A DNA stretch of 53,039 nt from a virus, in the IMG/VR virus record IMGVR_UViG_3300021379_002077, positions 1 through 53,039 of that record. One strand, given 5' to 3'. This document shows, piece after piece, positions 14,457-47,485 of this stretch. Under the pieces are notes generated by a model. That model was not told the DNA's origin and did not search any database. It worked only from the letters and a program-made list of their open reading frames with translations. Numbering within the stretch: position 1 is the stretch's first letter; each line of letters begins with the position of its first letter. The position numbers were made by a program, and so were the translations under genes.

Positions 14457-15567
14457 GTGACTCTTTATAAATCATAAGAGAGTCTAGGTCAACAAAAATG
14501 TCATTTAAATTTTCTTCGCCATTTGCGGCATACAAAGACCCATAAGCTTCTCCATTTTTTAAATAAACTGAACAAGACTTAGCTTTAAATTTATTTTTCT
14601 TTAAAGAAACTCTCTTTTTATTATTTGAGATTTTTTTATGTTCTTCAATTAGTAGAATCAAATCATCAATAAACTTCACTCTTTGATCAGATAAGTATTT
14701 CTTTTTTGTGCAAATAAGTCTTAAAGCGACCCCATGCTTTTTTACTCTTTTGACAAAATCTTCGTCAAACTTATCTGCGAAGTAAGAAATGTTATTAATG
14801 TTTTTTGATTTTAGAATTTCATCACTGACTGGCTTTTTAGTCATGATGGAAATTTTATTATTATTAAAAAAGTGGAGACAATTTTCTTCATTGTGAAGCA
14901 AGTCCAACCTTAAAACAATATTAGCTTTTGACAAAGAGTATTTTTTATCAGGAATAACGTGAACAAGTTGTTCTTTATATCTATCTCCGATAAATAAAGT
15001 TTTTCTCTCTGATTTTTCTTTACCAAGTTTTTCTAAAATTGAGTTTGCAATAACTTCGGGTTTGATCATGTTGATAGTTTTGGGGAACTCCTTTAAAGAG
15101 AAAGAGGGTTTATTTCCATTCCTATCTGATTCAATGATTGTTTGTTTTTCTTTTGAACCCCACAGAGGATCACAAGTTTTTGCGTAAGTATGTCCGTATA
15201 TGGCTACGATTGGAGTATCTAAATGAGAAGCGATATGGACTGGACAACTATCAATACCAACATGCATTAAGGCATTCTTGATTAGGAAAGCTGATTGTTT
15301 TATAGACTTAGTTTCAATAAACTTGTAAACATTTTTAATTTTAGGTTCTTTCCCACTTCCAATTTGGATAAATTTTACGTCTTCGTATTTAGTCTTTACA
15401 ATGTTGATTACTTCTTCCCAGTAATCGTAATGCTTTGAGTCAACTTTGTTATCTGTGTGGATCGTAATATAGTTTTCTTCAACAATTGGGTAAAAGTGAG
15501 GGAGAAAAACTGGGGTTCCAATTTTTACACCTAAATCTTTTGCATATACTTCTGCTAAGTGACTCAT
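14443..15567 (-). CDS. Glycosyltransferase family 9 C-terminal domain plus unknown domain
   Basis: 374 residues. Residues about 30-175 match the C-terminal nucleotide-sugar-binding half of heptosyltransferase-like GT9 enzymes; the block VGIDSCPVHIASHLDTPIVA followed by IYGHT (residues 103-126) is diagnostic. The N-terminal Rossmann half is missing here but is present at the C-terminus of the gene just upstream, and the two meet at an ATGA stop-start overlap (15564-15567). Residues about 195-374 form a Lys-rich unknown domain. Likely transfers a sugar, perhaps a heptose, from a nucleotide donor. The split could be natural (two-chain or frameshifted enzyme) or a sequence error. Confidence 0.75.
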   Translation of the reverse strand: MSHLAEVYAKDLGVKIGTPVFLPHFYPIVEENYITIHTDNKVDSKHYDYWEEVINIVKTKYEDVKFIQIGSGKEPKIKNVYKFIETKSIKQSAFLIKNALMHVGIDSCPVHIASHLDTPIVAIYGHTYAKTCDPLWGSKEKQTIIESDRNGNKPSFSLKEFPKTINMIKPEVIANSILEKLGKEKSERKTLFIGDRYKEQLVHVIPDKKYSLSKANIVLRLDLLHNEENCLHFFNNNKISIMTKKPVSDEILKSKNINNISYFADKFDEDFVKRVKKHGVALRLICTKKKYLSDQRVKFIDDLILLIEEHKKISNNKKRVSLKKNKFKAKSCSVYLKNGEAYGSLYAANGEENLNDIFVDLDSLMIYKESHEQG

Positions 15568-17282
15568 CTTAATTCGAATTGATTTTTATTTTTGCCGTTG
15601 TGGATGTAGTTGAGAACTTTTTGAGTTCCTACATTTGGTATAAATGCCATATCAAAATAACCTTTATTTGGGCCACTACCTTCAAGCTTGAGGAGATTAT
15701 CTAGTTGAGGGTCATACTGTAACACTTTATGGACAAATGGGTTGTCATCAATAAAGGGGAAGAATTCTTTTTTAGTGAAGAAGAAGATTTTTTTATCTGG
15801 ATAAAGACCGTTTAAATTCTTCATCAGAGAGTTGACCATTAAAACGTCTCCACCAGACTCAGGCATTAAAACAGCAATTCTATTTTCAATTTCTACATCA
15901 CTCAAAAGATCTTCGAAAGATGTTTTATTTGTTTTTTTATTTTCTTCTTTTTTATCTTCTTTTGAAGAACGTAGTTTTACGTTTTTAATATAATGCTTTA
16001 ATTGGGATACAGTATTTTGAACTGAGAATTTTTCTTGGACATATTTCATTCCAGTCTCAATAAGTTTAGATTTGGATTCTTCGTCCATTTCGTAAACTTG
16101 TTTTAGTCTTTCTGCAATGCTGTCAGGGCAAGTAGTTGCTTTAATAAACTGAGTGCTTGGTTCTCTATATTCATTCCAAGCTAGTGGAATGCCGCCTTGA
16201 TGTTCGTAAGCAGAATCTGTTCCGCAAGAGTAGTCTGTGACAAGCGTGATTAGCCCAGCAGCCTTTGCTTCTTGGATCGGGAGTTCTTGGCCACCACTTG
16301 TAAATGGGTGGCAGTAAACATCCATGATATTATAAATCTCATTGAGTTCTTTTTCTCTTACTCCGCGACCACTATTTTTTGTTTTAACACATTTTTCTCC
16401 ACCACATGATGAGCAGCTTTTATCTTCTCCATCATAAGGTTGTAAAAAGTAGTCATCACATTTGTGGCAAACATAAGTTGCCAACACACTCCCATCTTCG
16501 AGATTTTTTTCTTTTAGGTATTTTGGGATATCCCAACCCATTTGTTTTTCTGCCCAGTCTGTATGTAAAAGAAGTTTTGCTTTAACTTCTGGATTTTCTT
16601 TTCTAAATCTATTGAAGCCTTCTAGAAGATTTGGAACAGATTTTCTCAACTGATTCTTAAAAACAAAACCAATAACATAACTATCGTCAAGATTATGAAG
16701 CTTTCTAAGTTCATCTCTATTTTCTAAAGGTTTGAAGTGGCTATAGTCTACAGCACCATGAACGGTGGCAACAGTATCATGTCCAAGCTCTTTCATTGCA
16801 TCTTCAGCGAATGAAGCCCAAACTAACATTTGATCACACTTTGGTTCCATGTCTAAAGCTTGATCTAAAATTGGCAAACTATCTAAAGTAGTCCAAATAA
16901 TCTTTTTAGTTGTGTTCCACCAAGGCTTCTTTTCGTATTCTCTGAAAGCCCATACATCTTCGATACCAAGGAAAACATCTGGATTAACTTTTTCTACAAT
17001 ATCATCAATATTGTAATATCCATATTGAGCTGCTCTTTTTTTTGCAGGTTCTTTTTGTAAAACTTGAAGAATTCTTGGGTTGTTTGGATATGTCCCATAT
17101 GATTCCCAAGGTGTTTGTAGATCTTTGCCAAATGGAACTCCATTTGCGGCTTCTACAACTTCAATGTCTGGATCTTCATGTAGAGCGAGAAGAATATTTT
17201 TCATATTCTTCCCGAACCCAGTTACCATTCGGCAATAATTGGATTGTACTAGTACTTTAATTTTCTTAGAATGGGACATCAT
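15564..17282 (-). CDS. GT4 glycosyltransferase with zinc ribbon, fused to GT9 N-terminal half
   Basis: Numbered from the ATG at 17282, the N-terminal ~430 residues are a GT-B, group 1 glycosyltransferase: YRVIGFVFKNQLRKS-type start of the donor domain (read as YVIGFVFKNQLRKS) and SGGQELPIQEAKAAG near residue 330. The first Glu of the usual EX7E motif appears replaced by Gly. A four-Cys zinc ribbon (about C272, C275, C290, C293) is inserted in the donor domain. After a Lys-rich linker, residues about 460-570 match the N-terminal Rossmann half of GT9 (RIAVLMPESGGDVLMVNSL). The gene overlaps the SSB-like gene; ATGs at 17288, 17282 and 17279 and a TTG at 17297 are possible. 17282 lies nine bases after a GAGG. 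Confidence 0.78.
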   Translation of the reverse strand: MMSHSKKIKVLVQSNYCRMVTGFGKNMKNILLALHEDPDIEVVEAANGVPFGKDLQTPWESYGTYPNNPRILQVLQKEPAKKRAAQYGYYNIDDIVEKVNPDVFLGIEDVWAFREYEKKPWWNTTKKIIWTTLDSLPILDQALDMEPKCDQMLVWASFAEDAMKELGHDTVATVHGAVDYSHFKPLENRDELRKLHNLDDSYVIGFVFKNQLRKSVPNLLEGFNRFRKENPEVKAKLLLHTDWAEKQMGWDIPKYLKEKNLEDGSVLATYVCHKCDDYFLQPYDGEDKSCSSCGGEKCVKTKNSGRGVREKELNEIYNIMDVYCHPFTSGGQELPIQEAKAAGLITLVTDYSCGTDSAYEHQGGIPLAWNEYREPSTQFIKATTCPDSIAERLKQVYEMDEESKSKLIETGMKYVQEKFSVQNTVSQLKHYIKNVKLRSSKEDKKEENKKTNKTSFEDLLSDVEIENRIAVLMPESGGDVLMVNSLMKNLNGLYPDKKIFFFTKKEFFPFIDDNPFVHKVLQYDPQLDNLLKLEGSGPNKGYFDMAFIPNVGTQKVLNYIHNGKNKNQFELR

Positions 17283-17847
17283 CGTCATCGTCCTCAATTA
17301 CTGAGGATTTAGGTTCAGGTTTTTTATAAGTTTTTTGTGCTGGTTGATCTTGCTTATAAGATTCGGCTTGTGCGGTCATACTTTCTTTGATGTATGATTC
17401 AAGGAGAATAGCTAGACATTCAGCTTCTCCAGCTTCAATTGGGAGTTTAAAAAATTGAGCTGAGTTTTTAGTAATTGTAAGTCCCCAAGCGGGAGATTTG
17501 AAAGTTTCTTGAGTGTCTTTTCCTTTGATTACTCGATTTTTATCCCAAGGTGTAAGCTTGATGATTGTTGTTTTATCCTCAGTCTTATGGAATCCAACAA
17601 ATGGAATGCGTGTTTTGAAACAGGAGAGGAATTCCCCAGCTTCAATTTCAGTTAGTTTAATTGTAGTGGACTTGTCTGGATTCTTAGCATTTTCCTTAAA
17701 CGAGCCAGTTTTTGTATTATCGTTCCAGCTATGCTGGAGAATCATAGATACAAATAATACAGGCTTATTATTGCGATCTTTAGTGCTATCAAAAGTAAAA
17801 GCAGCACCTGTATTTTTAGCATTTGGCTTGTAAAGTGTAAATTTCAT
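17266..17847 (-). CDS. Single-stranded DNA-binding protein with SSB-like acidic tip
   Basis: 193 residues. The protein ends in DDDDDVPF, essentially the acidic tip used by bacterial SSB to recruit replication partners (DDDIPF in E. coli). The N-terminal 130 residues are strand-rich (MKFTLYKPNAKNTGAAFTF, then KSTTIKLTEIEAGEFLS). They look more like a PC4/Whirly-type ssDNA-binding fold than a classical OB-fold SSB; this is a judgement by eye. A Gln/Pro/Lys linker (about 150-180) separates core and tip, as in SSB. It is the first gene of a leftward operon and overlaps the glycosyltransferase start. Confidence 0.72.
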   Translation of the reverse strand: MKFTLYKPNAKNTGAAFTFDSTKDRNNKPVLFVSMILQHSWNDNTKTGSFKENAKNPDKSTTIKLTEIEAGEFLSCFKTRIPFVGFHKTEDKTTIIKLTPWDKNRVIKGKDTQETFKSPAWGLTITKNSAQFFKLPIEAGEAECLAILLESYIKESMTAQAESYKQDQPAQKTYKKPEPKSSVIEDDDDDVPF

Positions 17848-17853
17848 AGAAAA

Positions 17854-17869
17854 AGTGTATTATTTAACA
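17854..17869 (+). promoter_or_regulatory. Candidate phage promoter motif (GTGTA type)
   Basis: AGTGTATTATTTAACA lies in the divergent gap between the ssDNA-binding gene and the fibre-like gene, with GTGTA 31 nt before the rightward ATG at 17886. Closely similar to the motif before the tape measure gene. The spacing is longer than at most other sites, so a real leader would exist here. Confidence 0.35.
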
Positions 17870-17885
17870 GATAATCTATTGTAAC

Positions 17886-18971
17886 ATGCCATTTACAAAA
17901 ATTCAACCACAACAATTGCAACTTCCGACTTTTTTAAGTCCAAGTGGAGATTTCACTTTCCAAAATAACTCTACTGGATTTAATATTGATTTAAATAGGG
18001 AATTGGATGGTAGTTTTAACTTTACAGATTCAGTAACTGTAAACGATGGACAAAGAATAGTCACATCATCATCAACCAATAGTTATTCAGAATATAGTCT
18101 TGCTCTTGGAGGTACAAACAATGAAGTAACTGGAAATTACAATTTATTTTTAAATGGTGTTTCTAATACAGCTGGATCTGGAAATTATAATGTAATTATA
18201 AATTCAGAGAGTATTCAACTTGGGCAAAGTGGTAAATATAATACTGCTATAGGTGGAGATAGTTTGCAATTTGGCAATCAAACAACAGGTGCTGTTATTT
18301 TAGCTGATCATGAAACAGCGGTAACTAATAGTACCAATCATTCTTTGTTAGTTTCTTTCGGAAGTGGAATCACTTTTCAGAATGGAGATATTTACCACAA
18401 TGGAGATAGGGTTCATCTGAAGTCTCATTTATCTATCGATAGCCAACATTCTGGTATTTTTAGTGGTAATGTTTTGGTTGGGGGTCAATTTCAAGCTGAT
18501 GGTAGTGCAGAAATCGAAGGACCACTTTATGTTAATTCACAAACAGATAAAAGTATTTTTAGTGGAGATTTAAGTTGCGATGATCTTTTTTCAAATAGTC
18601 TTACATTGCAAGGTAGTGCAGAGATAACTGGAAATTTAAGCGTTAGTGGAATAGTTATATTGAATGATGGGACAGAAGCTATGTCAAAAGGATTTGGATC
18701 TCAAAGGTTTTCTCATCAGGTAAGTAATACTTTGACTGGAGCTGGAGAAAATTTCTTTAACGAAGGTGGCTCTCAATTGCTGTATGGTACTGTTGGGAAA
18801 ATTGTTCCAGATGATCATATTGTTACTGGTCATATTCTAACGGGATATGATCCAGCTGACCAAACGAGTGAAATAGCATATTTTTTATTAAAATCAGCAG
18901 GTTTCACAGGAGCAATCATGTTTGATAAATACAGAGACTTAAATGGTGTTCACATCCCTCCTGCTCCATAA
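17886..18971 (+). CDS. Fibre/adhesin-like structural protein with YadA-type repeats
   Basis: 361 residues. Residues about 70-130 carry imperfect 14-16-residue repeats ending in Gly/Asn (LALGGTNNEVTGNYNLFLNG, GKYNTAIGGDSLQFGNQ), like the beta-roll of YadA-head and phage fibre proteins. A second beta-rich stretch (about 180-265) has repeats of the type FSGNVLVGGQFQADGSAEI and GSAEITGNLSVSG. The C-terminus lacks a clear enzyme. The 408-residue protein at 47852 shares the repeat style, so they are probably paralogous virion fibres. It is a single rightward gene between leftward units and is convergent with the next gene. Confidence 0.68.
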   Translation: MPFTKIQPQQLQLPTFLSPSGDFTFQNNSTGFNIDLNRELDGSFNFTDSVTVNDGQRIVTSSSTNSYSEYSLALGGTNNEVTGNYNLFLNGVSNTAGSGNYNVIINSESIQLGQSGKYNTAIGGDSLQFGNQTTGAVILADHETAVTNSTNHSLLVSFGSGITFQNGDIYHNGDRVHLKSHLSIDSQHSGIFSGNVLVGGQFQADGSAEIEGPLYVNSQTDKSIFSGDLSCDDLFSNSLTLQGSAEITGNLSVSGIVILNDGTEAMSKGFGSQRFSHQVSNTLTGAGENFFNEGGSQLLYGTVGKIVPDDHIVTGHILTGYDPADQTSEIAYFLLKSAGFTGAIMFDKYRDLNGVHIPPAP

Positions 18972-18976
18972 GGATA

Positions 18977-19360
18977 TTAATCTAAATCAATCTTAACTCT
19001 AGAAGTTTCAATAGTCTTCTTTTTATCAGAAAGATGCTTCTTTCCAGTCTTCTTCTCGTAATCGTTAAAAACTTTACGTCTTACTGGGTCTTCTCCACCG
19101 TTAGCTTCAGCTCTTTTGGCCGAAAGCTCTGAGGAGTAATCCATAACATCTCCTACAGTTCCTTTCATTTTGCCAGTTTTCTCAATGAACTGATTTTTAT
19201 TCCAAGCATTTTCTCTTGTATCAATGGCTGCATTTGGAATAGTAAATACTCTTTGCCATTGTAAACCAGATTCATCAATATAAACATGTTCCTCATTCAT
19301 TGTCTGAACGATTTCTTTGTATTCTCCAGTTTCTGGGTGCTTATAAGTATAGATTGGCAT
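18977..19360 (-). CDS. FmdB-like small protein lacking zinc cysteines
   Basis: 127 residues. The start MPIYTYKHPETGEYKEIVQT has the layout of FmdB-family zinc-ribbon proteins (MPxYxYxC..CG..FE), but the metal-binding cysteines are absent. The second half is Lys/Glu-rich and ends in KIDLD. FmdB-like genes are seen in several phage groups; their role is not established. It starts one base from the stop of the glycosyltransferase upstream and is the last gene of the leftward unit that starts with the sigma factor. Confidence 0.55.
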   Translation of the reverse strand: MPIYTYKHPETGEYKEIVQTMNEEHVYIDESGLQWQRVFTIPNAAIDTRENAWNKNQFIEKTGKMKGTVGDVMDYSSELSAKRAEANGGEDPVRRKVFNDYEKKTGKKHLSDKKKTIETSRVKIDLD

Positions 19361-19361
19361 C

Positions 19362-20444
19362 TTAGTAAATTTTTTCTAGGATCTTCTCGATTGTCTTTTC
19401 GTAAGTAAATTCTTCTTGTAGTTTTAATCCTTCAGTGTTTTTAGATTTGGCAGATTGGACTGCTTTATCCATAGCAGTACCAATATCAACACCATTTAAT
19501 CTATAATATTGTCCTTGATTAAATTGGCCACCTTCACGGAAAAATACATTATCATAACAAGGTTGCTTGCCAATTGGTTCAACCAAGATTGCATTTTTAT
19601 CATTCGCCCAATCTTTATGAGATGTGCAGTTACTTACAATTGACCATTTACCAAGAGCAGTCGCATTAAAAGCGGGAAGGTTCCACCCTTCACCATTAGA
19701 CAATCCAGACAGGTCAATATCAATAGAGTTGACCACTTCATTGACTTCACTATTTGTTTTTAAGCGAGGTAAAAAGTTTACATTTGAAACATTTTGACTA
19801 CCAAGAGCTTGCTTGATTTGCTCTTGCATTTGTTCTTTTTTGAGAAATGGATTTTCGATCAAACAAGTCAATTGATAACGGGGATTATTGCCAAATTTCT
19901 GGACCCAAAGTTGAATTAAAGCTTGTGTATTTTTGCGACGTTCCATTTTTCCGATAAGACCAAAATGAATGATGTCATCCCCTAAGTATTCTTTATTTGT
20001 TTCTTTAAAATCTGTGTCGAAACCCAATGGTACATAAGATACATTATCACATCCCCTTTTCTTAAAAATCTCTGCTGCTTCAGAGCAAGAAAAGAAAACA
20101 TGGTTTTGAGCTTTAACAATAGCGATCTCTTCTTCTGTTGGGGAATCTACTTCATAAAAAGTGTAAAGGAACTGATTATCAGACACTTTCCTTTCTGAAC
20201 CGTTGATGTGCCAAACCCTTAAAGTCGGTGTATTTCTATCGAGTGATTTAAGTTGTGTTTTTGTCTTGTTGACCAAGTACTCAAACATATCTTCTTCCAA
20301 TAAGTCAAAAGCAGATAAGTCTAATTGACCAGTTGGGAAAATATTAATATCTAAATCTTTTTTCTTTAATTCTCTGAGAAAATTTAAAGATACATTTCCC
20401 AAACTGAGGGAATTAAATGGGGCATCAAAATTTAATTTATGCAT
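19362..20444 (-). CDS. Glycosyltransferase, GT-B fold (group 1-like)
   Basis: 360 residues. The segment HFGLIGKMERRKNTQALIQL (about residues 161-180) is the typical start of the donor-binding domain in group 1 glycosyltransferases, followed by SNVNFLPRL and SIDIDLSGLSNGEGWNLPAF, equivalent to the region around the EX7E motif. The N-terminal acceptor half is more diverged; FSCSEAAEIFKKRGCDNVSY (about 118) is the expected hinge strand. The start overlaps the sigma factor stop by eight bases, so the gene is co-transcribed with it. Substrate is unknown; it may act with the other sugar genes of the window on a virion or host surface glycan. Confidence 0.8.
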   Translation of the reverse strand: MHKLNFDAPFNSLSLGNVSLNFLRELKKKDLDINIFPTGQLDLSAFDLLEEDMFEYLVNKTKTQLKSLDRNTPTLRVWHINGSERKVSDNQFLYTFYEVDSPTEEEIAIVKAQNHVFFSCSEAAEIFKKRGCDNVSYVPLGFDTDFKETNKEYLGDDIIHFGLIGKMERRKNTQALIQLWVQKFGNNPRYQLTCLIENPFLKKEQMQEQIKQALGSQNVSNVNFLPRLKTNSEVNEVVNSIDIDLSGLSNGEGWNLPAFNATALGKWSIVSNCTSHKDWANDKNAILVEPIGKQPCYDNVFFREGGQFNQGQYYRLNGVDIGTAMDKAVQSAKSKNTEGLKLQEEFTYEKTIEKILEKIY

Positions 20445-21027
20445 TTTTCTTAATCTGTTTCTGAAATTCTTTTAATGTTTTGTCGTGGATGTTGATGCAT
20501 CCCTGAGCAGAAAGGCCAATCTTTTTACCAATATTTTTCCATGTATTCAACTTACCCTTTTCTCCTCCAAAATACCGTTCTTTAAAAATAATTTTTACTC
20601 TGTGATCCTTGTGAGAATTTATTAAATCAAGGATTGCTGTGAAACTCTCGTTGATTTCACATTTTGCGTTAGGATGCATTTCACTTGACTCTTCTGCATA
20701 ATCAATAGAGTCAAAAGATAAAGTTCTGTTGTTTTTCTTACTTGCTGTTTTCTTGCTTAAACAGAGATATTTTGCTTTATTACCAACATGAGTGGAAAAC
20801 TTAGCTTTATTTTCGTCATAGTCTAAGGCTGCTTTGTAAATGACATAATCTTTTTCATTCATTATGTCGTAAATCTCATTAATCGATAATGACTTAGAAG
20901 CGTATTTTTTTACCATATCGGCATAAACTCCAGAATGCCTGTTAATCAGAAGTTCAAGTGCCTCCTCATTGTCATGATGTCTGACAAGTTCGGTTAGTTC
21001 TGGGTCTGAAGCTTCAAAGTATTCCAT
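20437..21027 (-). CDS. Sigma-70-like RNA polymerase sigma factor
   Basis: 196 residues. Residues about 22-95 fit sigma region 2: EALELLINRHSGVYADMVKK, then DYVIYKAALDYDENKAKFST, like the (Y/F)D..kg.kFsTy signature. Residues about 143-190 fit region 4 with a helix-turn-helix: IIFKERYFGGEKGKLNTWKN, IGKKIGLSAQGCINIHDKTL. Small two-domain sigma factors without region 1 or 3 are known in phages, T4 gp55 being the late-gene example. It heads a leftward operon next to the control region at 21028-21300. It is the natural candidate to read the repeated GTGTA promoter-like motif. Confidence 0.82.
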   Translation of the reverse strand: MEYFEASDPELTELVRHHDNEEALELLINRHSGVYADMVKKYASKSLSINEIYDIMNEKDYVIYKAALDYDENKAKFSTHVGNKAKYLCLSKKTASKKNNRTLSFDSIDYAEESSEMHPNAKCEINESFTAILDLINSHKDHRVKIIFKERYFGGEKGKLNTWKNIGKKIGLSAQGCINIHDKTLKEFQKQIKKNA

Positions 21028-24618: not shown

Positions 24619-25548
24619 ATGAAATATTCTTTATTACACAGGGAGAAAGATGATATCTTAAATCCATCTGTTGTTTCTGGAGTTGGCAAAAGAGCTAATG
24701 TTCTTATGCGATACCTTGAATCAATTGATTCTTTATCTGGGGTTTACGACTACGATGATATAGAAAATATTGATAAAGACTCTATTATTATAGCTTTCAA
24801 TATTGAAGAGCAACATGCCTTTGATAAACTTGAATCTAGGAATTTAAAAGTTTGTAATTCTTATTGTTCTGGAGCTGATAAGCCTACTAACAAGATATAT
24901 ACATCTAAGAATATAAAAGTTAGATTTTTAAGTGAGGCAGTTAAGAATCTTTGTGATGGATTTTTTGATGAAGAAAACTCTTTTGTTTGTCATCATGGAT
25001 TTGGAGATTTTGAATATAAATCCTTAGATCGCGAAAAGAAATATTTTTTATGGTGTGCTAGCTTAGGTTGGGGTCCAATTGCCAAGGGGTTAAATCACTT
25101 TGTAAGAATGGCAAATTTAAACCCGAATTACGAATTCCTTGTTTATGGAGGCAAGTGGAACTCTGCTGCTTTAGAGCATGAATTACTAAAAGCATCTGAT
25201 CAAATTAGCAATCTAACTGTTAAGTTTGATTTAGCTGACGAAGATAAAGATGAGGTATTTTCTCAAGCTTTGGCTTTTTGTCAGTTTTCTCTTTTGATTG
25301 AAGCTGGAAATGTTCTTACTATCGAGTCTTTATTGAGAAATACTCCTGTTGTGACTCTTGATGTTGATAACGGATCTGTAAAAGAATATTTGAGTGACGA
25401 CAACATAAAGATGCACGATTATTTAATTAATGATGAATTTTTAAATCAAATTAATTCAGTTAGAGAGAGACTCATTGATAAAAACATTTATCGCGATAAA
25501 TTCTCTTGTGAATCTGAAATTAAAATTATAGCAAATCAATTTTTATGA
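24619..25548 (+). CDS. Glycosyltransferase-like protein, GT-B fold
   Basis: 309 residues. The second half has the layout of a GT4-type donor domain: KYFLWCASLGWGPIAKGLNH (about residues 139-158), YEFLVYGGKW, and FSLLIEAGNVLTIESLLRNT (about 227-247), where Glu residues occupy the positions of the EX7E motif. The N-terminal half is short and diverged. The gene starts right after the T-run of a terminator hairpin, with AGAAGGG in the stem as likely ribosome site. It overlaps the next gene by four bases and opens the sugar island. Sugar and acceptor are unknown. Confidence 0.7.
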   Translation: MKYSLLHREKDDILNPSVVSGVGKRANVLMRYLESIDSLSGVYDYDDIENIDKDSIIIAFNIEEQHAFDKLESRNLKVCNSYCSGADKPTNKIYTSKNIKVRFLSEAVKNLCDGFFDEENSFVCHHGFGDFEYKSLDREKKYFLWCASLGWGPIAKGLNHFVRMANLNPNYEFLVYGGKWNSAALEHELLKASDQISNLTVKFDLADEDKDEVFSQALAFCQFSLLIEAGNVLTIESLLRNTPVVTLDVDNGSVKEYLSDDNIKMHDYLINDEFLNQINSVRERLIDKNIYRDKFSCESEIKIIANQFL

Positions 25549-26369
25549 AAAAAATATTAGTAACTGGATCTTCGGGTTATATTGGATCTCATCTTCTTAA
25601 AAAAATCCCAACTTCATTTAATGTTTTTGGCTTAGATAAAAAGGAGACTCAAGTTCCTGTAAAATTTTATCATGCTGACATTAGAAAAGATGTTTATTTA
25701 AAATATAAGGAAGACTTTGATTGTGTCATTCACCTTGCGGCAGAGATGCGTGTTGGAGAGTCTGTAAAAGATCCAATTCTTTATTATGAAACAAATGTTG
25801 TAGGTACTTTGAATTTATTACGCAATATTAGAACGAAGCATTTTATTTTTGCATCTACTGGTGCTGCTGAAGGTCTTGCTTCTCCATATGGAATCTCTAA
25901 AAAATCAGCAGAAGAAATTATAACACAGTTTTGTTTAGAAAAAGGTATCGATTACACTATTTTCAGATTCTATAATGTTATTGGGTCAGATGGTATAACC
26001 GTACAGAATCCAGATGGTCTATTTTATAATCTTTTAAAATCAAAAGATACTGGAGTTTTTAAAATCTTTGGTAACGATTATGATACTAAGGATGGGACTT
26101 GTGTTCGTGATTATGTCCACGTAAATGAGATTTGCGAATCAATAATTTCAGCTATCGATAATCCAGCCAATCAAATCGAGAATCTTGGTCATGGAAATGG
26201 TACATCAGTTTTGGAGATGTTTAATTTATTCAAGTCCTGCAATAATTTGGATATTTCTTTAGAATATGCTCCACGAAGAGAAGGTGATATGCCAGTTAGC
26301 GTTTTGAAAGATGTCAGCCCTTATATGAAGAAAATATATTCAATAGAAGATCTATTAAAAAATGAATAA
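25545..26369 (+). CDS. NAD-dependent sugar epimerase (GalE-like)
   Basis: 274 residues, shorter than GalE (about 338). Short-chain dehydrogenase fold: GSSGYIG nucleotide-binding motif at the N-terminus, DIR at the end of the third strand, HLAAEMRVGESVKDP, and the catalytic YGISK (Tyr-x3-Lys). The stretch YDTKDGTCVRDYVHV is the GalE-type signature. It probably epimerises a UDP-sugar such as UDP-glucose/galactose or an N-acetyl form. It overlaps both neighbours by a few bases, so it is in a tight operon with the glycosyltransferases. The shortened C-terminal sugar-binding part leaves the substrate open. Confidence 0.87.
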   Translation: MKKILVTGSSGYIGSHLLKKIPTSFNVFGLDKKETQVPVKFYHADIRKDVYLKYKEDFDCVIHLAAEMRVGESVKDPILYYETNVVGTLNLLRNIRTKHFIFASTGAAEGLASPYGISKKSAEEIITQFCLEKGIDYTIFRFYNVIGSDGITVQNPDGLFYNLLKSKDTGVFKIFGNDYDTKDGTCVRDYVHVNEICESIISAIDNPANQIENLGHGNGTSVLEMFNLFKSCNNLDISLEYAPRREGDMPVSVLKDVSPYMKKIYSIEDLLKNE

Positions 26370-27198
26370 CTTTTGGATTACAGGAATTACCTGCGAAGGT
26401 AATAAAGAAAATCTAATTGAGTTACTAGAACCAATTAGAAAATATTTTAATGGATTGATTTGGACATTTCATTATCCAAAAGATGATGGGGCTGATTATT
26501 TAGAGTCAATCAAAGGAGAGGGAGAGATTATTTACAGTAAGTGGTGTAATAGATTTGATTTTAGTCGTAACACATCTTTGTTTCAGTCTCCAATTAAAAA
26601 TGGTGATTGGTTTGTTGTTGTTGATGATGCTGAGAGGATTGATGAAAAGTTCGCAGCTTCTTTGAAAAACTTCACAAGGCAGTTTGATCAAAATGGTATT
26701 GATGGTGTTTACTTGAGAGGTAAACATTTTATGTTTAGATTTAATGAGTCTACAAAGTTTAAATTGAATCCACATTGTGGAGTAGATGGTGTTAATAGAA
26801 GTTTTGAAATAACATCTATTGAAGGTTGGGATGATTCTTTTTTTACAAACGTCAGAGGTGAACAAAGAGATAAGTTTGATTTTGTTCGCCACAATTTAAA
26901 ATATTATTTATACCCACAAACAAATCACCTTGTTTTGAAGTGTGAACATGACATGGACTTCATTAAAAAACGGTTTGACATAAGAGCTAAGTTTTTCAAT
27001 GAGTTGTATTCTCTAGGTTTAGACCCATATGACCTCGAAGATGTTTTTTCATATATTGTCCATGAGGATCTTAGTGAAGTAGCCAAGGAGTGTATTAATC
27101 AAGAAAAATACTTGAATGATGTGTACCGCTTCTATAAGATGGATTTAGACGACTTTGAAGAAGACTTCGATTTTAAAAATTTGATAAAAGTAAAATGA
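26362..27198 (+). CDS. Possible GT-A glycosyltransferase-like protein
   Basis: 278 residues. The middle block GDWFVVVDDAERIDEKFAAS (about residues 88-107) looks like the strand-turn carrying the metal-binding Asp pair of GT-A enzymes, and LIWTFHYPKDDGADYLESIK resembles the first strand region. The C-terminal 80 residues are helical and acidic. No definite family can be assigned by eye. It overlaps GalE-like and GT2 genes at both ends, supporting a role in the same sugar pathway. Confidence 0.6.
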   Translation: MNNFWITGITCEGNKENLIELLEPIRKYFNGLIWTFHYPKDDGADYLESIKGEGEIIYSKWCNRFDFSRNTSLFQSPIKNGDWFVVVDDAERIDEKFAASLKNFTRQFDQNGIDGVYLRGKHFMFRFNESTKFKLNPHCGVDGVNRSFEITSIEGWDDSFFTNVRGEQRDKFDFVRHNLKYYLYPQTNHLVLKCEHDMDFIKKRFDIRAKFFNELYSLGLDPYDLEDVFSYIVHEDLSEVAKECINQEKYLNDVYRFYKMDLDDFEEDFDFKNLIKVK

Positions 27199-27962
27199 AG
27201 ATTTCAATTTATAGATCTGCTTTCAATCTTGTAAGAAATCATTTCCAAGGCTGGGAGGAGTCTATACGTAAATCTTGTGATTTCGCTGATGAAGTCGTCA
27301 TTGCTATAAATACATCTTCTGATGGGACGTTAGAACTAATAAAAGATTTAGGTATTCCCAATTTAGTTATTTTAGAATGTGACATTCCGTATTCTGATCC
27401 ATTACTTGACGGGAAGTTGAAGAATGAGGCTTTACAAAAATGTTCTGGAGATGTTCTCATTCAATTAGATTTAGATGAATATATTCCTAAGTGGCAAAAG
27501 CCAATTTGGATTAAGTACGCAGAAAGTTTACTTGATGATTTTGTTTCATGCTATATGATTCCTTGTGTTGATATTTATGGTGACTTAAATCATTACAAAA
27601 GTATTGGAAACAAATGGTATCTTCATAAAAGGGGCTTGAATCGTGGTCCAGTTAATTTTGCAAGAAAGGAAGATGGAACGGTTGATACACATAAGAGTGA
27701 CACTTGTGAATTAATTGATTCAGAAGGAAACTTACTTCCTTCAAAAATAGTTCCTAATGATGTTTCTTTATTGGAAACGAATAAGATCCCTTTTGTTGTC
27801 CATTTGGGGTATCTAGATTTTTCTTCTAGAATTAATCGTAATAAAGAGTTTTGGGGTGAGCATTGGATAAAAGAGTCTGGTGGAGAAGAGCCTCCACACA
27901 AAATTCATTTATCTATCGATGATTTTGACGAACAGATTTTCGAACATAATTTAAATTTATAA
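27195..27962 (+). CDS. Glycosyltransferase family 2-like protein
   Basis: 255 residues. GT-A features: an N-terminal strand MKISIYRSAFNLVRN, the sugar-nucleotide turn EVVIAINTSSDGTLELIK (about residues 33-50), and the metal-binding QLDLDEYIPKW (about 92-102). The acceptor side after residue 110 is longer and polar. It overlaps the upstream gene by four bases and precedes the sulfotransferase by 12 bases. It likely adds one sugar to the glycan built by this island. Confidence 0.8.
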   Translation: MKISIYRSAFNLVRNHFQGWEESIRKSCDFADEVVIAINTSSDGTLELIKDLGIPNLVILECDIPYSDPLLDGKLKNEALQKCSGDVLIQLDLDEYIPKWQKPIWIKYAESLLDDFVSCYMIPCVDIYGDLNHYKSIGNKWYLHKRGLNRGPVNFARKEDGTVDTHKSDTCELIDSEGNLLPSKIVPNDVSLLETNKIPFVVHLGYLDFSSRINRNKEFWGEHWIKESGGEEPPHKIHLSIDDFDEQIFEHNLNL

Positions 27963-27974
27963 ATATAATAAAAT

Positions 27975-28598
27975 ATGAACATGCATTCTAATACTTATTC
28001 TATAAGTGAAGATCAATGGGTTTTTATTCATTTACCAAAAACTGGTGGTACATCTTTGCATCACGCAATAAAAGATCCAAGAGTCATTGGTAAAAATATC
28101 CATTTATTTATTAATCCAAATTATCCACCTTCAAAATATAATTATTTTACTTTTTTAAGGCATCCTGTTGATCGCGCTTGGTCTTATTATCAAATGTGTT
28201 TAAGGCTTGGTAGTCGGGAATATTTGAGGTTAGGTAGGGATTTGAAAAATCTACTTTCTTGTTGTTGGGAAACTCATAATGCAATGACAATGATTTTTTC
28301 TGGCAAAGAATGTGGAGATTATTATTTATCAATATATCTTAATGGCGGTATTGTATCTGATTCAGATTTCAAAGAACTTTACAAATCAGCATTAAATAAT
28401 TTAAACAATTTTAAATTCATTGGATTTATGGAAAATATAGAGCAAGATTCGCTTCTCTTGAAAAAATATATAGATATTGATAATATAGAGCATAGGAATA
28501 AACATTCTTATCCAAAAATCTCAGATCATGATCGGGAACAGATTGAAGAAAAAAATTATTTTGACTTAATGCTTTACAACACAATAAAGAATCAATGA
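27975..28598 (+). CDS. Carbohydrate sulfotransferase (PAPS-dependent)
   Basis: 207 residues. Both PAPS-binding signatures are clear: the 5'-phosphosulfate loop HLPKTGGTSLHH (residues about 19-30) and the 3'-phosphate motif LRHPVDRAWSYY (about 61-72). This is the arrangement of carbohydrate sulfotransferases of the Sulfotransfer_2 type. It transfers sulfate from PAPS to a sugar hydroxyl. It lies between a GT2 gene and gmd and overlaps gmd by four bases. The host would have to supply PAPS, as no PAPS synthesis gene is visible. No signal peptide or membrane segment, so it acts in the cytoplasm. Confidence 0.88.
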   Translation: MNMHSNTYSISEDQWVFIHLPKTGGTSLHHAIKDPRVIGKNIHLFINPNYPPSKYNYFTFLRHPVDRAWSYYQMCLRLGSREYLRLGRDLKNLLSCCWETHNAMTMIFSGKECGDYYLSIYLNGGIVSDSDFKELYKSALNNLNNFKFIGFMENIEQDSLLLKKYIDIDNIEHRNKHSYPKISDHDREQIEEKNYFDLMLYNTIKNQ

Positions 28599-29623
28599 AG
28601 AAAGTAATTATCACAGGAGTTACAGGTCAAGATGGCAGCTTTATGGCTGACTATTTACTGAAGAATACTGAGCATACTATTGTTGCTGGTGTTAGGAGAC
28701 TTAGCGTTAAGAATCACAAGAACATTTCTCACTTGCTTAATCACCCTCGATTTAAGTTAATTGATTTAGATGTTTCTGATCAAGCTAATACAGAAGAAGT
28801 AATTGCTAAAGAAAATCCTGATTACTTTATTAATTTTGCGGCTAATTCATTTGTTGGTGTGAGTTGGACTCAACCAGTTAATCATATGCAGACAAATGCG
28901 ATGGCTGTTTTATATCAGCTCGAAGCTATTCGCAAGCATTGCCCAAAATGTCGTTATTACAATGCTGGCTCCTCAGAGGAATTTGGAGACGTTGTAGAGA
29001 CTCCACAATCAGAAACTCATCCACTACGCCCAAGAAGCCCCTATGGTGTTTCTAAAGCCAGCGCAAGGCACATGGTAAAGGTTTGGAGAGAGTCTTATAA
29101 ACTTTATGCTATTCAAGGATGGTTATTTAACCACGAAGGAACTCGTCGAGGAGAAGAGTTCGTTACTCGCAAGATTACCAAGAATGTAGCTCGTATTAAA
29201 AATGAATATGTTAATGGTGATTTCAAGCCTCTTGAATTAGGCAATGTAGATACTAAAAGGGATTGGAGTGATGCCGAAGACTTTGTGGAAGGTGTTTGGT
29301 TAATGCTCAATCAAGAAAAGCCTAAAGAGTATGTTCTATCTTCAAATGAGACTCATACTATTAGAGAATTCATTGAAGAAGCATTTAACTTTGCTGGATT
29401 TGCAAGAGAACAATGTGAATGGCAGGGTTATGGACTTAACGAGAAGTATATTCATGAAGGCAGGGTTTTAGTTCAAATCAATCCTCAGTTCTATAGACCA
29501 GCAGAAGTAGATCTATTATTAGGTGATTCTAATCTAGCTAGAAGAGAGTTAAATTGGGAACCTAAAGTCAACTTTATTAACTTAGTTAGAAAAATGGTTG
29601 ACAGAGATCTATTGGAATATTAG
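28595..29623 (+). CDS. gmd: GDP-mannose 4,6-dehydratase
   Basis: 342 residues, full length for the family. GVTGQDGSFMADYLL is the Gmd nucleotide-binding motif; NFAANSFVGVSW, the active-site AGSSEEFG and YGVSKASA (Tyr-x3-Lys) follow in order, as does FNHEGTRRGEEFVTRKIT, all typical of Gmd. Converts GDP-D-mannose to GDP-4-keto-6-deoxymannose, the precursor of fucose, rhamnose, perosamine and similar sugars. No clear GDP-fucose synthase (Fcl) is in the window, so the next step is unassigned. Last gene of the sugar island. Confidence 0.95.
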   Translation: MKKVIITGVTGQDGSFMADYLLKNTEHTIVAGVRRLSVKNHKNISHLLNHPRFKLIDLDVSDQANTEEVIAKENPDYFINFAANSFVGVSWTQPVNHMQTNAMAVLYQLEAIRKHCPKCRYYNAGSSEEFGDVVETPQSETHPLRPRSPYGVSKASARHMVKVWRESYKLYAIQGWLFNHEGTRRGEEFVTRKITKNVARIKNEYVNGDFKPLELGNVDTKRDWSDAEDFVEGVWLMLNQEKPKEYVLSSNETHTIREFIEEAFNFAGFAREQCEWQGYGLNEKYIHEGRVLVQINPQFYRPAEVDLLLGDSNLARRELNWEPKVNFINLVRKMVDRDLLEY

Positions 29624-44165: not shown

Positions 44166-44462
44166 ATGATGTCCTTAATTAAAACTCTTGCTCAAAGTTT
44201 GAAGCTTTACCTTGCTTTAAGGAATAAGTTAGCATTCTTTGAAATAACAGAAAAACATAACAAAAAGAAAAATGAACTTATCGAAGAAATTGAAAGGTTA
44301 CGTGCTATTGGCGACAATGACTCCAATGATCGGGCTGACTTCCTGCGGGGGCAGCTCAGAACCCAAAACGACCAGTTTAAACATATATCAGCCGTCTTCC
44401 TTGAAGCTGAAGGCGGGTCAAGCGATTCAGACTCAGGAGGGGATTTACACTCCTCAAAGTGA
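44166..44462 (+). CDS. Inner-membrane spanin candidate (Rz-like)
   Basis: 98 residues. The N-terminal 30 residues (SLIKTLAQSLKLYLALRN) are hydrophobic to amphipathic, followed by a charged helix KKKNELIEEIERLRAIGDND and DRADFLRGQL. The C-terminus is Gly/Ser/Asp-rich. The layout resembles Rz, an inner-membrane helix plus coiled coil that meets an outer-membrane partner to fuse the membranes in lysis. Another gene is nested in a different frame inside it, as in Rz/Rz1. A clear single transmembrane helix is not obvious, so the call is moderate. Confidence 0.6.
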   Translation: MMSLIKTLAQSLKLYLALRNKLAFFEITEKHNKKKNELIEEIERLRAIGDNDSNDRADFLRGQLRTQNDQFKHISAVFLEAEGGSSDSDSGGDLHSSK

Positions 44463-44523
44463 CGAGGTTTGGCATTCAGATGCTCGTTACAGAAAGATTG
44501 AGCGAGAGCTTTATAATCAGTAA
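44272..44523 (+). CDS. Outer-membrane spanin candidate, lipoprotein (Rz1-like)
   Basis: 83 residues. N-terminal signal KKLKGYVLLATMTPMIGLTS and lipobox LTSC with Cys25, so the mature protein would be a lipid-anchored outer-membrane lipoprotein. After the Cys come GGSSEPKT and a short polar domain. It begins in a different frame within the 98-residue ORF and runs past its stop, the usual Rz/Rz1 layout. Together they would disrupt the outer membrane at lysis. Confidence 0.75.
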   Translation: MNLSKKLKGYVLLATMTPMIGLTSCGGSSEPKTTSLNIYQPSSLKLKAGQAIQTQEGIYTPQSDEVWHSDARYRKIERELYNQ

Positions 44524-44581: not shown

Positions 44582-45256
44582 TTAAAAGGTATAATTGAAA
44601 GCTACAGCGTAGCCCCAAGATCCATCGAGTGAACCAGCACCATCTGCGTCATTGTCTTTGAAGGCAGTTTTAGCAGAGATTGAGCGTCCAGCTCCAAGGT
44701 CATAAGAAACGGTAACTCCAGCTTCGATAGCGGTGTATTCGTCAGCAAAGTTAGTTTCAACGAATGGCACGAAAACAAGACCTTCTTGAATCAACTCAAA
44801 TCCTTTTGAAAGGCCAAGTTGAAGTCCAAGGAGATTGTCTCCACCAACTTCAGTCCAAGCTGCTGCACTAAGATCAACATATCCAAGAGGATATACAGTT
44901 CCAAGTGAAATAAGATCAAATCCACCCCAAGTAGAGTCAAGTTGACTGTAGCTAAGGTCTGCAACAAGATCTTGTCCAAGGACATTCACAGAACGAGCAT
45001 ATGAAAGAGAAAGATCAGTATCAGTTCCTCCTCCATCTACATCGTAAACGCCAACTGAAACAGCAACATTACCACCAGCTGCTTCTGTAGAAACAAAAAC
45101 ATCTGCTGAGATAGAGTCTTCGCGAAGGATGAGTCCTTGGCTAAGAGTTGAAGTGCTGAACTTAAGTCCAGCTTCAGCGTCAAGTCCATTAAGGATTGAG
45201 GCGTTTGTTGTGCTAATAAAAGCACCCATCAGTAGTGTAAGAATAGTATTCTTCAT
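44582..45256 (-). CDS. Outer-membrane beta-barrel protein with signal peptide
   Basis: 224 residues. Signal peptide MKNTILTLLMGAFISTTNAS, then alternating beta strands (e.g. GLKFSTSTLSQGLI, VSVGVYDVDGGGTDTDLSLS) and a C-terminal strand ending AVAFNYTF. A terminal Phe with aromatic residues before it is the usual BAM recognition pattern. Small barrels of this kind are known as phage morons (for example lambda Lom) and host porin-like proteins. It faces away from the lysis genes, in the same leftward direction as the PEP-CTERM-like protein. Possible role in host-surface change. Confidence 0.8.
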   Translation of the reverse strand: MKNTILTLLMGAFISTTNASILNGLDAEAGLKFSTSTLSQGLILREDSISADVFVSTEAAGGNVAVSVGVYDVDGGGTDTDLSLSYARSVNVLGQDLVADLSYSQLDSTWGGFDLISLGTVYPLGYVDLSAAAWTEVGGDNLLGLQLGLSKGFELIQEGLVFVPFVETNFADEYTAIEAGVTVSYDLGAGRSISAKTAFKDNDADGAGSLDGSWGYAVAFNYTF

Positions 45257-45301: not shown

Positions 45302-46033
45302 TTAATATCTTCTTCTTCTCTGCAAAAGTAGCAAGCAACCTAAACCGCCAAACAAAGAAGAGCTGAGTTCTGGGGCAGCAGCTAATTCTAATTCAACTCC
45401 ATTACCAAGAATAAGTTCTTGTGGCACAACTTCATCAAAAACAAAGTTATCCATTCCATAACAGAAAGCAGAATATTCAGCTTGAACCCACTCACCAGTT
45501 TCCCATTGAGCTAAGTCACGAATAACGACTTTATCAACATTGTCGAAAGATTCTGGAAGGAATACGTCTTGATAATCTCCACCCCAGTCATCACTAGGTA
45601 ACATATATTCTTCTGTTACAGCGACTCCTTCAAGCCATCCTTGGATAGCGATAATTTCTGTTCCAGTTGCTGCTCCACCACCGATTTCAGTATTAGAAGT
45701 CATGTGGAAGAACTGGAGATCAAATGGTACATTGTTTTCGCGAGAAATCTCAATTGCAGAGATTGCGGTCCAGTGGCCATGGATTACATCATCTCCAGCT
45801 CCATAGTAGTTTCCTACAGTTTGGAAGCTGTAGTCGTTAACAGGAGAAACGTAATTTAGGATAACAGTTCCTTCTTGGTAGCTAACAATATTAGAGTTCT
45901 GTGACTGAGTGTTTGTTACAAATTCAGTTCCATCTGGGCTAATTGCAGTTCCACCAGTAAAGGTTACAATAGCAGCTTCTGCGAAAGAAGACAAAGCTAT
46001 TAATGGCAGTAGTAGAGGTATTAGTTTGTTCAT
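45302..46033 (-). CDS. Secreted protein with PEP-CTERM-like sorting signal
   Basis: 243 residues. N-terminal signal peptide (MNKLIPLLLPLIALSSFAEA) and a C-terminal sorting tail: APELSSS, a hydrophobic stretch LFGGLGCLLLL, then RRRR before the last Tyr. This is the layout of PEP-CTERM proteins processed by exosortase, with PEL in place of PEP. The mature part is strand-rich, with Gly/Asp and GTEIIAIQGW. An exosortase must come from the host, as none is in the window. It starts inside the stop of the preceding small membrane gene (ATGA at 46033-46030). Confidence 0.85.
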   Translation of the reverse strand: MNKLIPLLLPLIALSSFAEAAIVTFTGGTAISPDGTEFVTNTQSQNSNIVSYQEGTVILNYVSPVNDYSFQTVGNYYGAGDDVIHGHWTAISAIEISRENNVPFDLQFFHMTSNTEIGGGAATGTEIIAIQGWLEGVAVTEEYMLPSDDWGGDYQDVFLPESFDNVDKVVIRDLAQWETGEWVQAEYSAFCYGMDNFVFDEVVPQELILGNGVELELAAAPELSSSLFGGLGCLLLLQRRRRY

Positions 46034-46224
46034 TTATTTTTCTTTTTTAGTAGATAGTCTTTTATTTTCGTTAAATTGCCAGTCAACTTACCAAGCAGTC
46101 TGCCTAGTTTACTGTCTTCTGGGACAATATAAGAAAGTGTTCCAATGAGGCCCATAACTGAGATAATAAACTCAGGCATTGAGGACATATATGGGGCCAA
46201 GATTTTATCGAATATTTCTTCCAT
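46030..46224 (-). CDS. Small membrane protein (possible holin or envelope factor)
   Basis: 64 residues. One hydrophobic segment FIISVMGLIGTLSYIV (about residues 18-34) between a short acidic N-terminus and a basic C-terminus (KLTKIKDYLLKKKNK reads as KIKDYLLKKKNK). The shape fits a single-span holin-like or antiholin-like protein, but it could equally be a small envelope protein. Its stop overlaps the start of the PEP-CTERM-like gene as ATGA, suggesting joint expression. Confidence 0.6.
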   Translation of the reverse strand: MEEIFDKILAPYMSSMPEFIISVMGLIGTLSYIVPEDSKLGRLLGKLTGNLTKIKDYLLKKKNK

Positions 46225-46226
46225 TA

Positions 46227-47120
46227 CTAGTCTCCTACACTTGTTACTTGAGGATCATCTTTAACCTCTTCGTAATCGATTCGGTTCTTTGTTTCCTCTT
46301 TAGGTTCTGTTTTTGTTGTGTCATCTCCACCTTCTCCATCAGGAGTTTGCGCTGTTGTGTCGCCACCTTCAGTGCCACCTCCGTCTCCTCCTTCAGTGCC
46401 ACCTTCAGTTCCAACTCCGTCTCCTCCTTCAGCACTAGCATCTGTATTGGTTCCTTCGACATCGCCATATCCTTTTTCGGCATACTCGATAATTGTTTCA
46501 AAAGCAGTTACTCCAATTAATGCTTCTGAATATGAATTAAATTTAGAAAAAACTCCATATTGCTGCTCTGTTACTACAGCAATCTCCATTCCTTCAGTCC
46601 CTGCTGTTTTAGCTTGGAAGTAAGCTCCACTACCAATTGACATTACTCCAGCAGTTCCAATTGCAGCTACTTTGTTTACAGATTCTTGAACAAATGTTGT
46701 TACTGCGCTTGTTAAGCTTGGTGTTGCTGCGGCTGCGGTTTGAGTTGTTGCAGCCATTACTCCACCTCCAGCTACAGTCTTTGTTGCTTTCTTTAATAAT
46801 TCTTTATTATTCTCAGCAATCTCATTTAATTTTTCTAAAGTTGATGTTTCTGGAGCTTCTGCTTTTACCTCTTGCTCTTCTCCTTCAACTTTTTCAGTTT
46901 CTTCTGTAACCTCTTCGGTAGCTTCTTCGTCTTCTACTTCAGCCCCACATTCTTCACAAACACACTTTTGACTTTCTAAGTGTTTAATTCTTTGAAGTAA
47001 TGCCCAAGCAGTTTCTCTAGCATGGCGATCCAAGTCAGAGATAAGCTCACTGTCTTCTGGATTGCAATACTTTAAAGCGAAATCTTCTGCTTCCGCAAGA
47101 TCTTTGCTATTTTCCCCCAT
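46227..47120 (-). CDS. Low-complexity acidic/Gly-rich protein with hydrophobic centre
   Basis: 297 residues from the ATG at 47120 (MGENSKDLAEAEDFALKYCN); an upstream in-frame GTG at 47138 coincides with the GTGTA motif, so the ATG is preferred. After a helical start comes CVCEECG (possible metal site), then a Glu/Val-rich acidic linker, then two Ala/Gly-rich hydrophobic stretches (about residues 130-185) that might enter a membrane, and finally repeats of GGDG and GTEGG. Function unknown. It starts a leftward unit with the small membrane protein two bases downstream. Confidence 0.6.
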   Translation of the reverse strand: MGENSKDLAEAEDFALKYCNPEDSELISDLDRHARETAWALLQRIKHLESQKCVCEECGAEVEDEEATEEVTEETEKVEGEEQEVKAEAPETSTLEKLNEIAENNKELLKKATKTVAGGGVMAATTQTAAAATPSLTSAVTTFVQESVNKVAAIGTAGVMSIGSGAYFQAKTAGTEGMEIAVVTEQQYGVFSKFNSYSEALIGVTAFETIIEYAEKGYGDVEGTNTDASAEGGDGVGTEGGTEGGDGGGTEGGDTTAQTPDGEGGDDTTKTEPKEETKNRIDYEEVKDDPQVTSVGD

Positions 47121-47130
47121 GTATAAAAAT

Positions 47131-47142
47131 AGATACACAAAA
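47131..47142 (-). promoter_or_regulatory. Candidate phage promoter motif, leftward
   Basis: On the minus strand TTTTGTGTATCT occurs with GTGTA starting at 47138, 18 nt before the ATG at 47120. It mirrors the rightward motif at 47155 in the same short divergent gap, so both directions seem to carry the element. Confidence 0.35.
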
Positions 47143-47170: not shown

Positions 47171-47485
47171 ATGGATTTCAAAAATTTGATCAGGGAGTTT
47201 TTAAGTGGAGGTTGGGTTATCCCTGTGATTGGTGCAGCTGGAATGGTTGCACGTATGCTGACATATAAAGGAGAATATTCTTGTAGAACATTTTGGAGAA
47301 ATGTTATAGCTGCTGCTATCCTTTCTGGAATCCTATGGTTTGTTTTAAAAGATGCGCCTATTAGCGATTTTATAAAAGCTATTTCTTATGGTGTAGTTGG
47401 AGTAGTAGCACCAGAAATTATTAATGGTATTATTGCTTTAGCTAAAAAGTTTGAGAAGAATCCTGATAAATTCTTAAAAAAGTAA
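47171..47485 (+). CDS. Holin-like membrane protein
   Basis: 104 residues with three hydrophobic segments: WVIPVIGAAGMVARML (about 15-30), NVIAAAILSGILWFVL (about 44-59) and ISYGVVGVVAPEIINGII (about 71-88), then a basic tail KKFEKNPDKFLKK. Size and layout match LydA-like phage holins. Holins trigger lysis by forming holes in the inner membrane. It faces the opposite direction to the envelope cassette and is near the spanin pair. No endolysin is recognised in the window. Confidence 0.72.
   Translation: MDFKNLIREFLSGGWVIPVIGAAGMVARMLTYKGEYSCRTFWRNVIAAAILSGILWFVLKDAPISDFIKAISYGVVGVVAPEIINGIIALAKKFEKNPDKFLKK

Follow-up and report, generated by a model that had tools for sequence, protein, structure and literature searches.

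The window, by which we mean the whole stretch of 53,039 nucleotides that was analysed, is the IMG/VR virus record IMGVR_UViG_3300021379_002077 and belongs to an uncultured, mostly aquatic phage. It was read as a tailed phage because of its gene content, which includes a tail tape measure, a DnaE-type polymerase, a DnaB-like helicase, a ribonucleotide reductase and several glycosyltransferases and epimerases. The load of glycan genes is heavy in two regions and partly common to sister phages; these genes encode GT9 (heptosyltransferase-type), group 1 and family 2 glycosyltransferases and several NAD-dependent epimerases. The gene under study encodes a secreted-type protein, called here the family A cargo. 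The N-terminus of the window cargo, MNKLIPLLLPLIALSSFAEA followed by AIVTF, resembles a signal peptide both by eye and by hydropathy, and the C-terminus, AAPELSSSLFGGLGCLLLLQRRRRY, consists of APELSSS, a hydrophobic stretch and RRRRY. A basic n-region and a hydrophobic core were found by hydropathy in all complete cargo members, and this type of signal peptide, with small residues before the cut site, is kept across the family A alignment. The cargo gene stands third in a cassette, X-Y-cargo, whose genes are translationally coupled; X and Y lie directly upstream of the cargo on the same strand (Table 1).

Table 1. Features of the cassette, its surroundings and the glycan-gene regions in the window.
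Feature	Position	Strand	Basis or remark
Cargo gene, family A (243 aa, secreted-type, PEP-CTERM-type tail)	45302..46033	(-)	ORF, ATG start
Signal peptide, residues 1-20, MNKLIPLLLPLIALSSFAEA	45974..46033	(-)	Sequence reading
PEP-CTERM-type tail, residues 221-243, PELSSS-hydrophobic-RRRRY	45305..45373	(-)	P221 and E222 invariant
Gene Y (64 aa, small membrane protein, basic C-terminus)	46030..46224	(-)	ORF, alignment across contigs
Gene X (303 aa, one TM-like segment AIGTAGVMSIGSGAYFQA)	46227..47138	(-)	Probable start 47120 (MGENSKD)
Optional fourth gene (224 aa, outer-membrane beta-barrel-like, signal peptide, C-terminal ...NYTF)	44582..45256	(-)	Sequence reading
98-aa protein gene adjoining the cassette	44166-44462	(+)	Kept in many contigs
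83-aa ORF in another frame, overlapping the 98-aa gene, lipobox LTSC	44272-44523	(+)	Sequence reading
104-aa multi-TM protein, holin-like by eye	47171-47485	(+)	No Pfam match above cut-off
Regions with a heavy load of glycan genes	13686-21027 and 24619-29623

Of the 19 contigs in which the start is intact, 18 have a four-nucleotide overlap (ATGA) between the Y stop and the cargo start; the T7-like contig L077 uses GTG instead. Y is recognisable in all 19 contigs except G091 and is a protein of 55-64 aa with one TM and a basic end. In close relatives it carries PEF or PEL just before the helix (SSMPEFIISVMGLIGTLSYIV), which resembles the cargo tail; this feature is absent from distant Y proteins and is possibly a coincidence. 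X precedes Y and the cargo in nearly all complete cassettes. Its N-domain is small and helical, its single TM-like segment shows a conserved G-x-A-G pattern, and its C-terminal region is acidic and variable. Neither X nor Y matched a lysis family (holin or spanin) in Pfam or PHROG. In most contigs the cassette lies on the strand opposite to the upstream gene and a promoter of its own is therefore expected, the orientation being as expected for an independent (moron-type) unit. A scan of the locus for sigma-70 promoters and terminators found sites no more frequently than in shuffles.

The 224-aa barrel-like gene follows the cargo directly in the window and in G008, and its product ends in ...NYTF or ...GYQF. 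An unrelated barrel-like protein of 388-389 aa, ending in ...YRLTF in G083, comes directly after the cargo in the T7-like carriers G083 and G091 (L102:19433 onward and L100:13309-14475). Both barrel calls were made from sequence, neither protein having a Pfam match. The 98-aa gene and the 83-aa ORF that overlaps it form a candidate Rz/Rz1-like overlapping spanin pair, and the 104-aa holin-like gene and X are transcribed away from each other, about 32-50 bases apart.

Profile searches left the window protein below the curated PEP-CTERM cut-offs, and some of its homologues above one of them. The window protein matched NF038120 (PEP_CTERM_QFxxD) below threshold (E=0.0024, 17.8 bits, cut-off 80), and no TIGR02595 or PF07589 match was obtained with it. 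The curated TIGR02595 cut-off of 16 bits was passed by homologues in 8 of the 16 phage records searched (L075, 23.8 bits; L077, 20.5; L084, 17.6), and true PEP tails (PEPST or PEPAT) occur on other phage contigs, in homologues about 41-50% identical to the window cargo. The best homologue score with PF07589 was 19.8 bits against a cut-off of 20.7, and NF038120 matched 9 of 9 close members (best 7e-6) as well as L081 (1e-8, 35.3 bits), all under its cut-off of 80. Since homologous tails carry PEP and exceed the TIGR02595 cut-off, the PEL form is, judged from sequence, a variant of a real PEP-CTERM-type tail.

Family A tails start with PELSSS, PELGSS, PESGS, PEIGTS, PEANS, PEASV, PEIST, PEPAT or PEPST and continue with a hydrophobic and a basic part. 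The Pro-Glu pair is invariant in 34 of 34 distinct family A C-termini, and its codons vary synonymously (CCA/CCT/CCC, GAA/GAG) while the following residue changes (A in 16, L in 7, P in 4, I in 3, S in 2, M and V in 1 each). The third position is a near-invariant Pro in the founding description of PEP-CTERM (PMC1569441); in the phage tails it is usually another residue, which counts against the PEP-CTERM reading. The motif-helix-basic layout is present in all 34 and in all complete C-termini of a second cargo family, family B, described below, with the strict PEP tripeptide in some members. When the 969 ORF products of 21 related contigs were scanned for a C-terminal PE, hydrophobic and basic series, 21 matches were obtained, all of family A and one per contig; composition-preserving shuffles gave 0 matches per pass, and a chance origin of the tail was rejected on this comparison. 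An earlier note on this DNA had described a signal peptide and an APELSSS-hydrophobic-RRRR end, which the translation of the cargo ORF bore out, and had singled out PEL as a motif variant, a reading now supported by the canonical PEP tails of distant phage homologues. Its central proposal of phage-borne PEP-CTERM cargo is supported by these PEP tails and by the retention of the tail when the body is exchanged. In the comparison with PEP-CTERM profiles that it had suggested, homologues in 8 records exceeded the TIGR02595 cut-off and the window protein stayed sub-threshold.

Family A was collected in a first scan that gave 11 close viral homologues, then extended through alignments and, with a wider profile, to 47 loci; homologues are present on about 47-48 viral contigs. 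The family is kept down to 36-45% identity across many phages with the same three-gene order. By the genes that they share outside the cassette, the carriers form about six groups. One group holds the window and its siphophage-like relatives, G004 is a separate group with 2 gene families in common with the window, and G086, G087 (a 122-kb contig) and G088 form another. SSB-like, endonuclease-like and exonuclease genes surround the cassette in the T7-like G083 and G091, and in the T7-like L077 it lies just ahead of a portal gene whose closest relative is that of an uncultured Autographiviridae phage (64%). The sixth group is L082. Zero homologues of family A, X or family B were found in a phage database of 50,697 records, zero homologues were found in a plasmid search, and Verrucomicrobia phage P8625 and the T7-like S45-C18 lacked a family A homologue.

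Scanning virus contigs with X and Y uncovered family B, a cargo of about 276 aa with a signal peptide, which stands as the third gene behind X-Y with the same ATGA overlap (L146:6049-6879, L187:5189-6022 and about 44 loci). The bodies of the two families show no convincing resemblance in sequence: hhalign gave a probability of 0.3%, and there was one marginal HMM match (E=0.002 in a tiny database). All complete family B members nevertheless end in TAIPE[A/V/I/S/M/F/P]-hydrophobic-basic, and in one PEP-bearing member the C-terminal 56 residues matched the exosortase-dependent protein XDP1 (E=4e-4). In the slot, a 104-aa holin-like gene is followed by X, Y, the cargo, the 98-aa gene, an epimerase gene and DUF5824. 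A family B cassette occupies the window's slot in G093, G094 and G096, with the 104-aa holin-like or a 115-aa gene on one side and the genes for the 98-aa protein and the epimerase on the other. At this one locus X, Y and the type of tail stay while the body is replaced, which suggests that the tail rather than the body is central to the cassette. This exchange is our strongest evidence that the tail is the constant part and the cargo the variable part of a cassette apparently built around the tail. In a test of recombination at the tail boundary, which was not decisive, nucleotide identity of the tails was 0.63 between families A and B vs 0.68-0.69 within them. Megablast of a region of a 118-kb family B phage contig against phages gave no match.

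These sequence features point to a surface-display cassette, with a probability that we put at roughly 0.7, in which a host exosortase would process the phage cargo for display on the infected cell. X and Y would be small inner-membrane proteins translated together with the secreted cargo. Sec would export the cargo, whose C-terminal helix and RRRR anchor would keep it in the inner membrane; a host-supplied exosortase would cut it at the Pro-Glu motif, and the cut cargo would reach the outer surface or the exopolysaccharide of the infected cell. Sec export, retention by the tail, cleavage at the motif and delivery to the outer surface are steps of the established pathway model (PMC1569441, PMC3237569, PMC12188702); for the phage cargo, we infer its export, processing by the host and surface location.

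Work on exosortase sorting has treated it as a cellular system tied to exopolysaccharide, and the route of its substrates across the outer membrane is still unclear (PMC12188702). The phage cassette resembles the PEP-CTERM/exosortase (EpsH) system (PMC1569441; PMC3237569) in its signal peptide, its motif-helix-basic tail, the Gram-negative type of envelope and the variable bodies on a constant tail, but it differs in consisting of phage genes, in being a coupled three-gene cassette instead of a single-gene operon, in a third residue that is usually not Pro and in having no exosortase alongside. The variant signals PEF-CTERM, VPDSG-CTERM, MYXO-CTERM and others (NCBIfam) share the layout and several of their models match sub-threshold; however, the phage tails reach the cut-off of no variant exosortase or archaeosortase model, and the phage families would therefore need a model of their own. 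The weak similarity to the NF038120 family covers the tail and the greater part of the body, but with 16-35 bits vs a cut-off of 80 the relationship is distant at best. TIGR03118 proteins on hot-spring virus contigs (PMC11003980) likewise place an exosortase-interaction-type C-terminus on virus DNA, although there they are an entry in a list of horizontally acquired proteins, with no cassette and with the tail unstudied. No earlier phage-borne PEP-CTERM cassette was described in the literature searched, which consisted mostly of open-access papers.

A simpler role for the tail would be that of a plain C-terminal membrane anchor (stop-transfer, positive-inside), with the cargo left on the periplasmic face of the inner membrane and no exosortase needed. 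By its length the tail could cross a membrane once, it ends in basic residues, and no exosortase was found in the 33 phage records searched or in the sole co-binned genome. This is nonetheless quite unlikely, as about 60 distinct tails from two unrelated cargo families drift in their helix and basic residues yet all keep Pro-Glu, the sole invariant pair, and as an anchor would leave unexplained the homologues that pass the PEP-CTERM model. The main functional rival is egress, for which Y would be holin-like, X would span the envelope and the cargo would loosen the outer membrane or EPS for progeny release. The cassette of the window group does adjoin the holin-like gene and the Rz/Rz1-like pair, and the size, single TM and basic end of Y are consistent with such a module. 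It lies, however, on the strand opposite to the holin-like and spanin-like genes, occupies the positions given above in the T7-like G083, G091 and L077, and X and Y lack lysis-family matches, which together make egress unlikely, if still worth keeping in mind. The capture by chance of a host PEP-CTERM gene, with no role selected in the phage, appears highly improbable: phages do acquire host genes and the body weakly matches the bacterial family NF038120, but the gene is kept at the identities given above in many phages with one gene order, and its sole relative in a genome scan for close relatives was itself on a phage contig in a MAG.

This MAG, G001 (CAKZOO, a species representative labelled Flavobacteriaceae), bears on a further explanation, namely that the hosts are Flavobacteriaceae and that some sorting enzyme outside the known exosortases recognises the tail. 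Several contigs of the phage group are indeed found in it: at least 2 phage contigs with family A genes, and two more sampled contigs that match these phages. Contigs L013, L270, L272, L284 and L277 of G001 were named for the phage DNA in the bin. Were G001 really the host, the exosortase model would not hold, as no exosortase was detected in it with PF09721, TIGR04128 or TIGR04178 and no PEP-CTERM protein with TIGR02595. The bin is 4.1 Mb, vs 1.4-2.7 Mb for its first-listed relatives, and its phage contigs differ but have similar GC. We regard the bin as inflated and apparently contaminated by phage DNA; its excess size and its mix of phage contigs with similar GC make the co-binning weak, and this explanation is in our view very unlikely. 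The family A profile, run over 296 genomes of the phylum of G001, matched only two phage contigs of G001, and the EUB338-III-type 16S site, a Verrucomicrobiota marker, was absent in 60 of 60 drawn from the group of G001 itself. Verrucomicrobiota are a possible host phylum, a guess from the style of the tail. There is a report of a marine Verrucomicrobia phage group whose host has 42% GC (PMC3861242), from which it follows only that hosts of this kind exist. Of the homologues that the earlier note had proposed to look for, those in other phages were thus found in number, and the one in a host genome proved to lie on a phage contig in a MAG; the exosortase that it had proposed to look for in candidate hosts was missing from G001, an oversized and phage-rich bin, by all three models. 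Its claim that the phage uses the host sorting pathway fits the tail and the cassette and, with no exosortase-bearing host linked, is still inferred.

Within the surface-display reading, X and Y could themselves be a phage partner that captures or steers the host exosortase, such that any PE-tailed cargo behind Y would be displayed. We consider this doubtful; if true, unrelated tailed phages would share a modular viral platform for the display of exchangeable cargo. More generally, a cassette in which the cargo is swapped but the signal and two helper-like membrane proteins persist would show viral use of the exosortase pathway. It would offer small natural substrates and candidate partners for studying exosortase sorting, and X, Y and the tail would give a sequence handle for finding phages of exosortase-bearing, mostly uncultured hosts.

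The purpose of display may be sought in the body of the cargo. AlphaFold2, run with 24 sequences, predicted a beta-sandwich for the family A body (pLDDT 74.5; 65-75 across models). The nearest solved structures were carbohydrate-binding or galactose-binding-like sandwiches and DUF4465, all weak (Foldseek E 2e-3 to 6e-3, with none below 1e-3 among solved structures), with a structural TM-score up to about 0.5 by target length in the galactose-binding-like/CBM32-type comparison; the viral structure library gave nothing significant. Glycan binding by the predicted body is a lead. A change of adsorption is favoured as the purpose because the secreted body is lectin-like, a barrel gene and glycan-modifying genes are present and the cassette is independently oriented, and it could take the form of superinfection exclusion or of masking of a receptor or EPS by the glycan-binding-like beta-sandwich. 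We hold this tentatively, at somewhat less than even odds for the two forms jointly, superinfection exclusion being argued from location and type of cargo only. Superinfection-exclusion and surface-modification genes (reviewed in PMC11436027) share a moron-like independent orientation and products that act on the envelope, as the phage cargo would, but exosortase sorting is not described for them in the literature searched. Profiles of families A and B gave nothing meaningful against PDB sequences, and family B was without known relatives in our searches. Its N-terminal half is acidic, and a conserved part, LEINVDSTSSLTLRG...NSQTERSIVNLSPNA, looks repeat- or solenoid-like.
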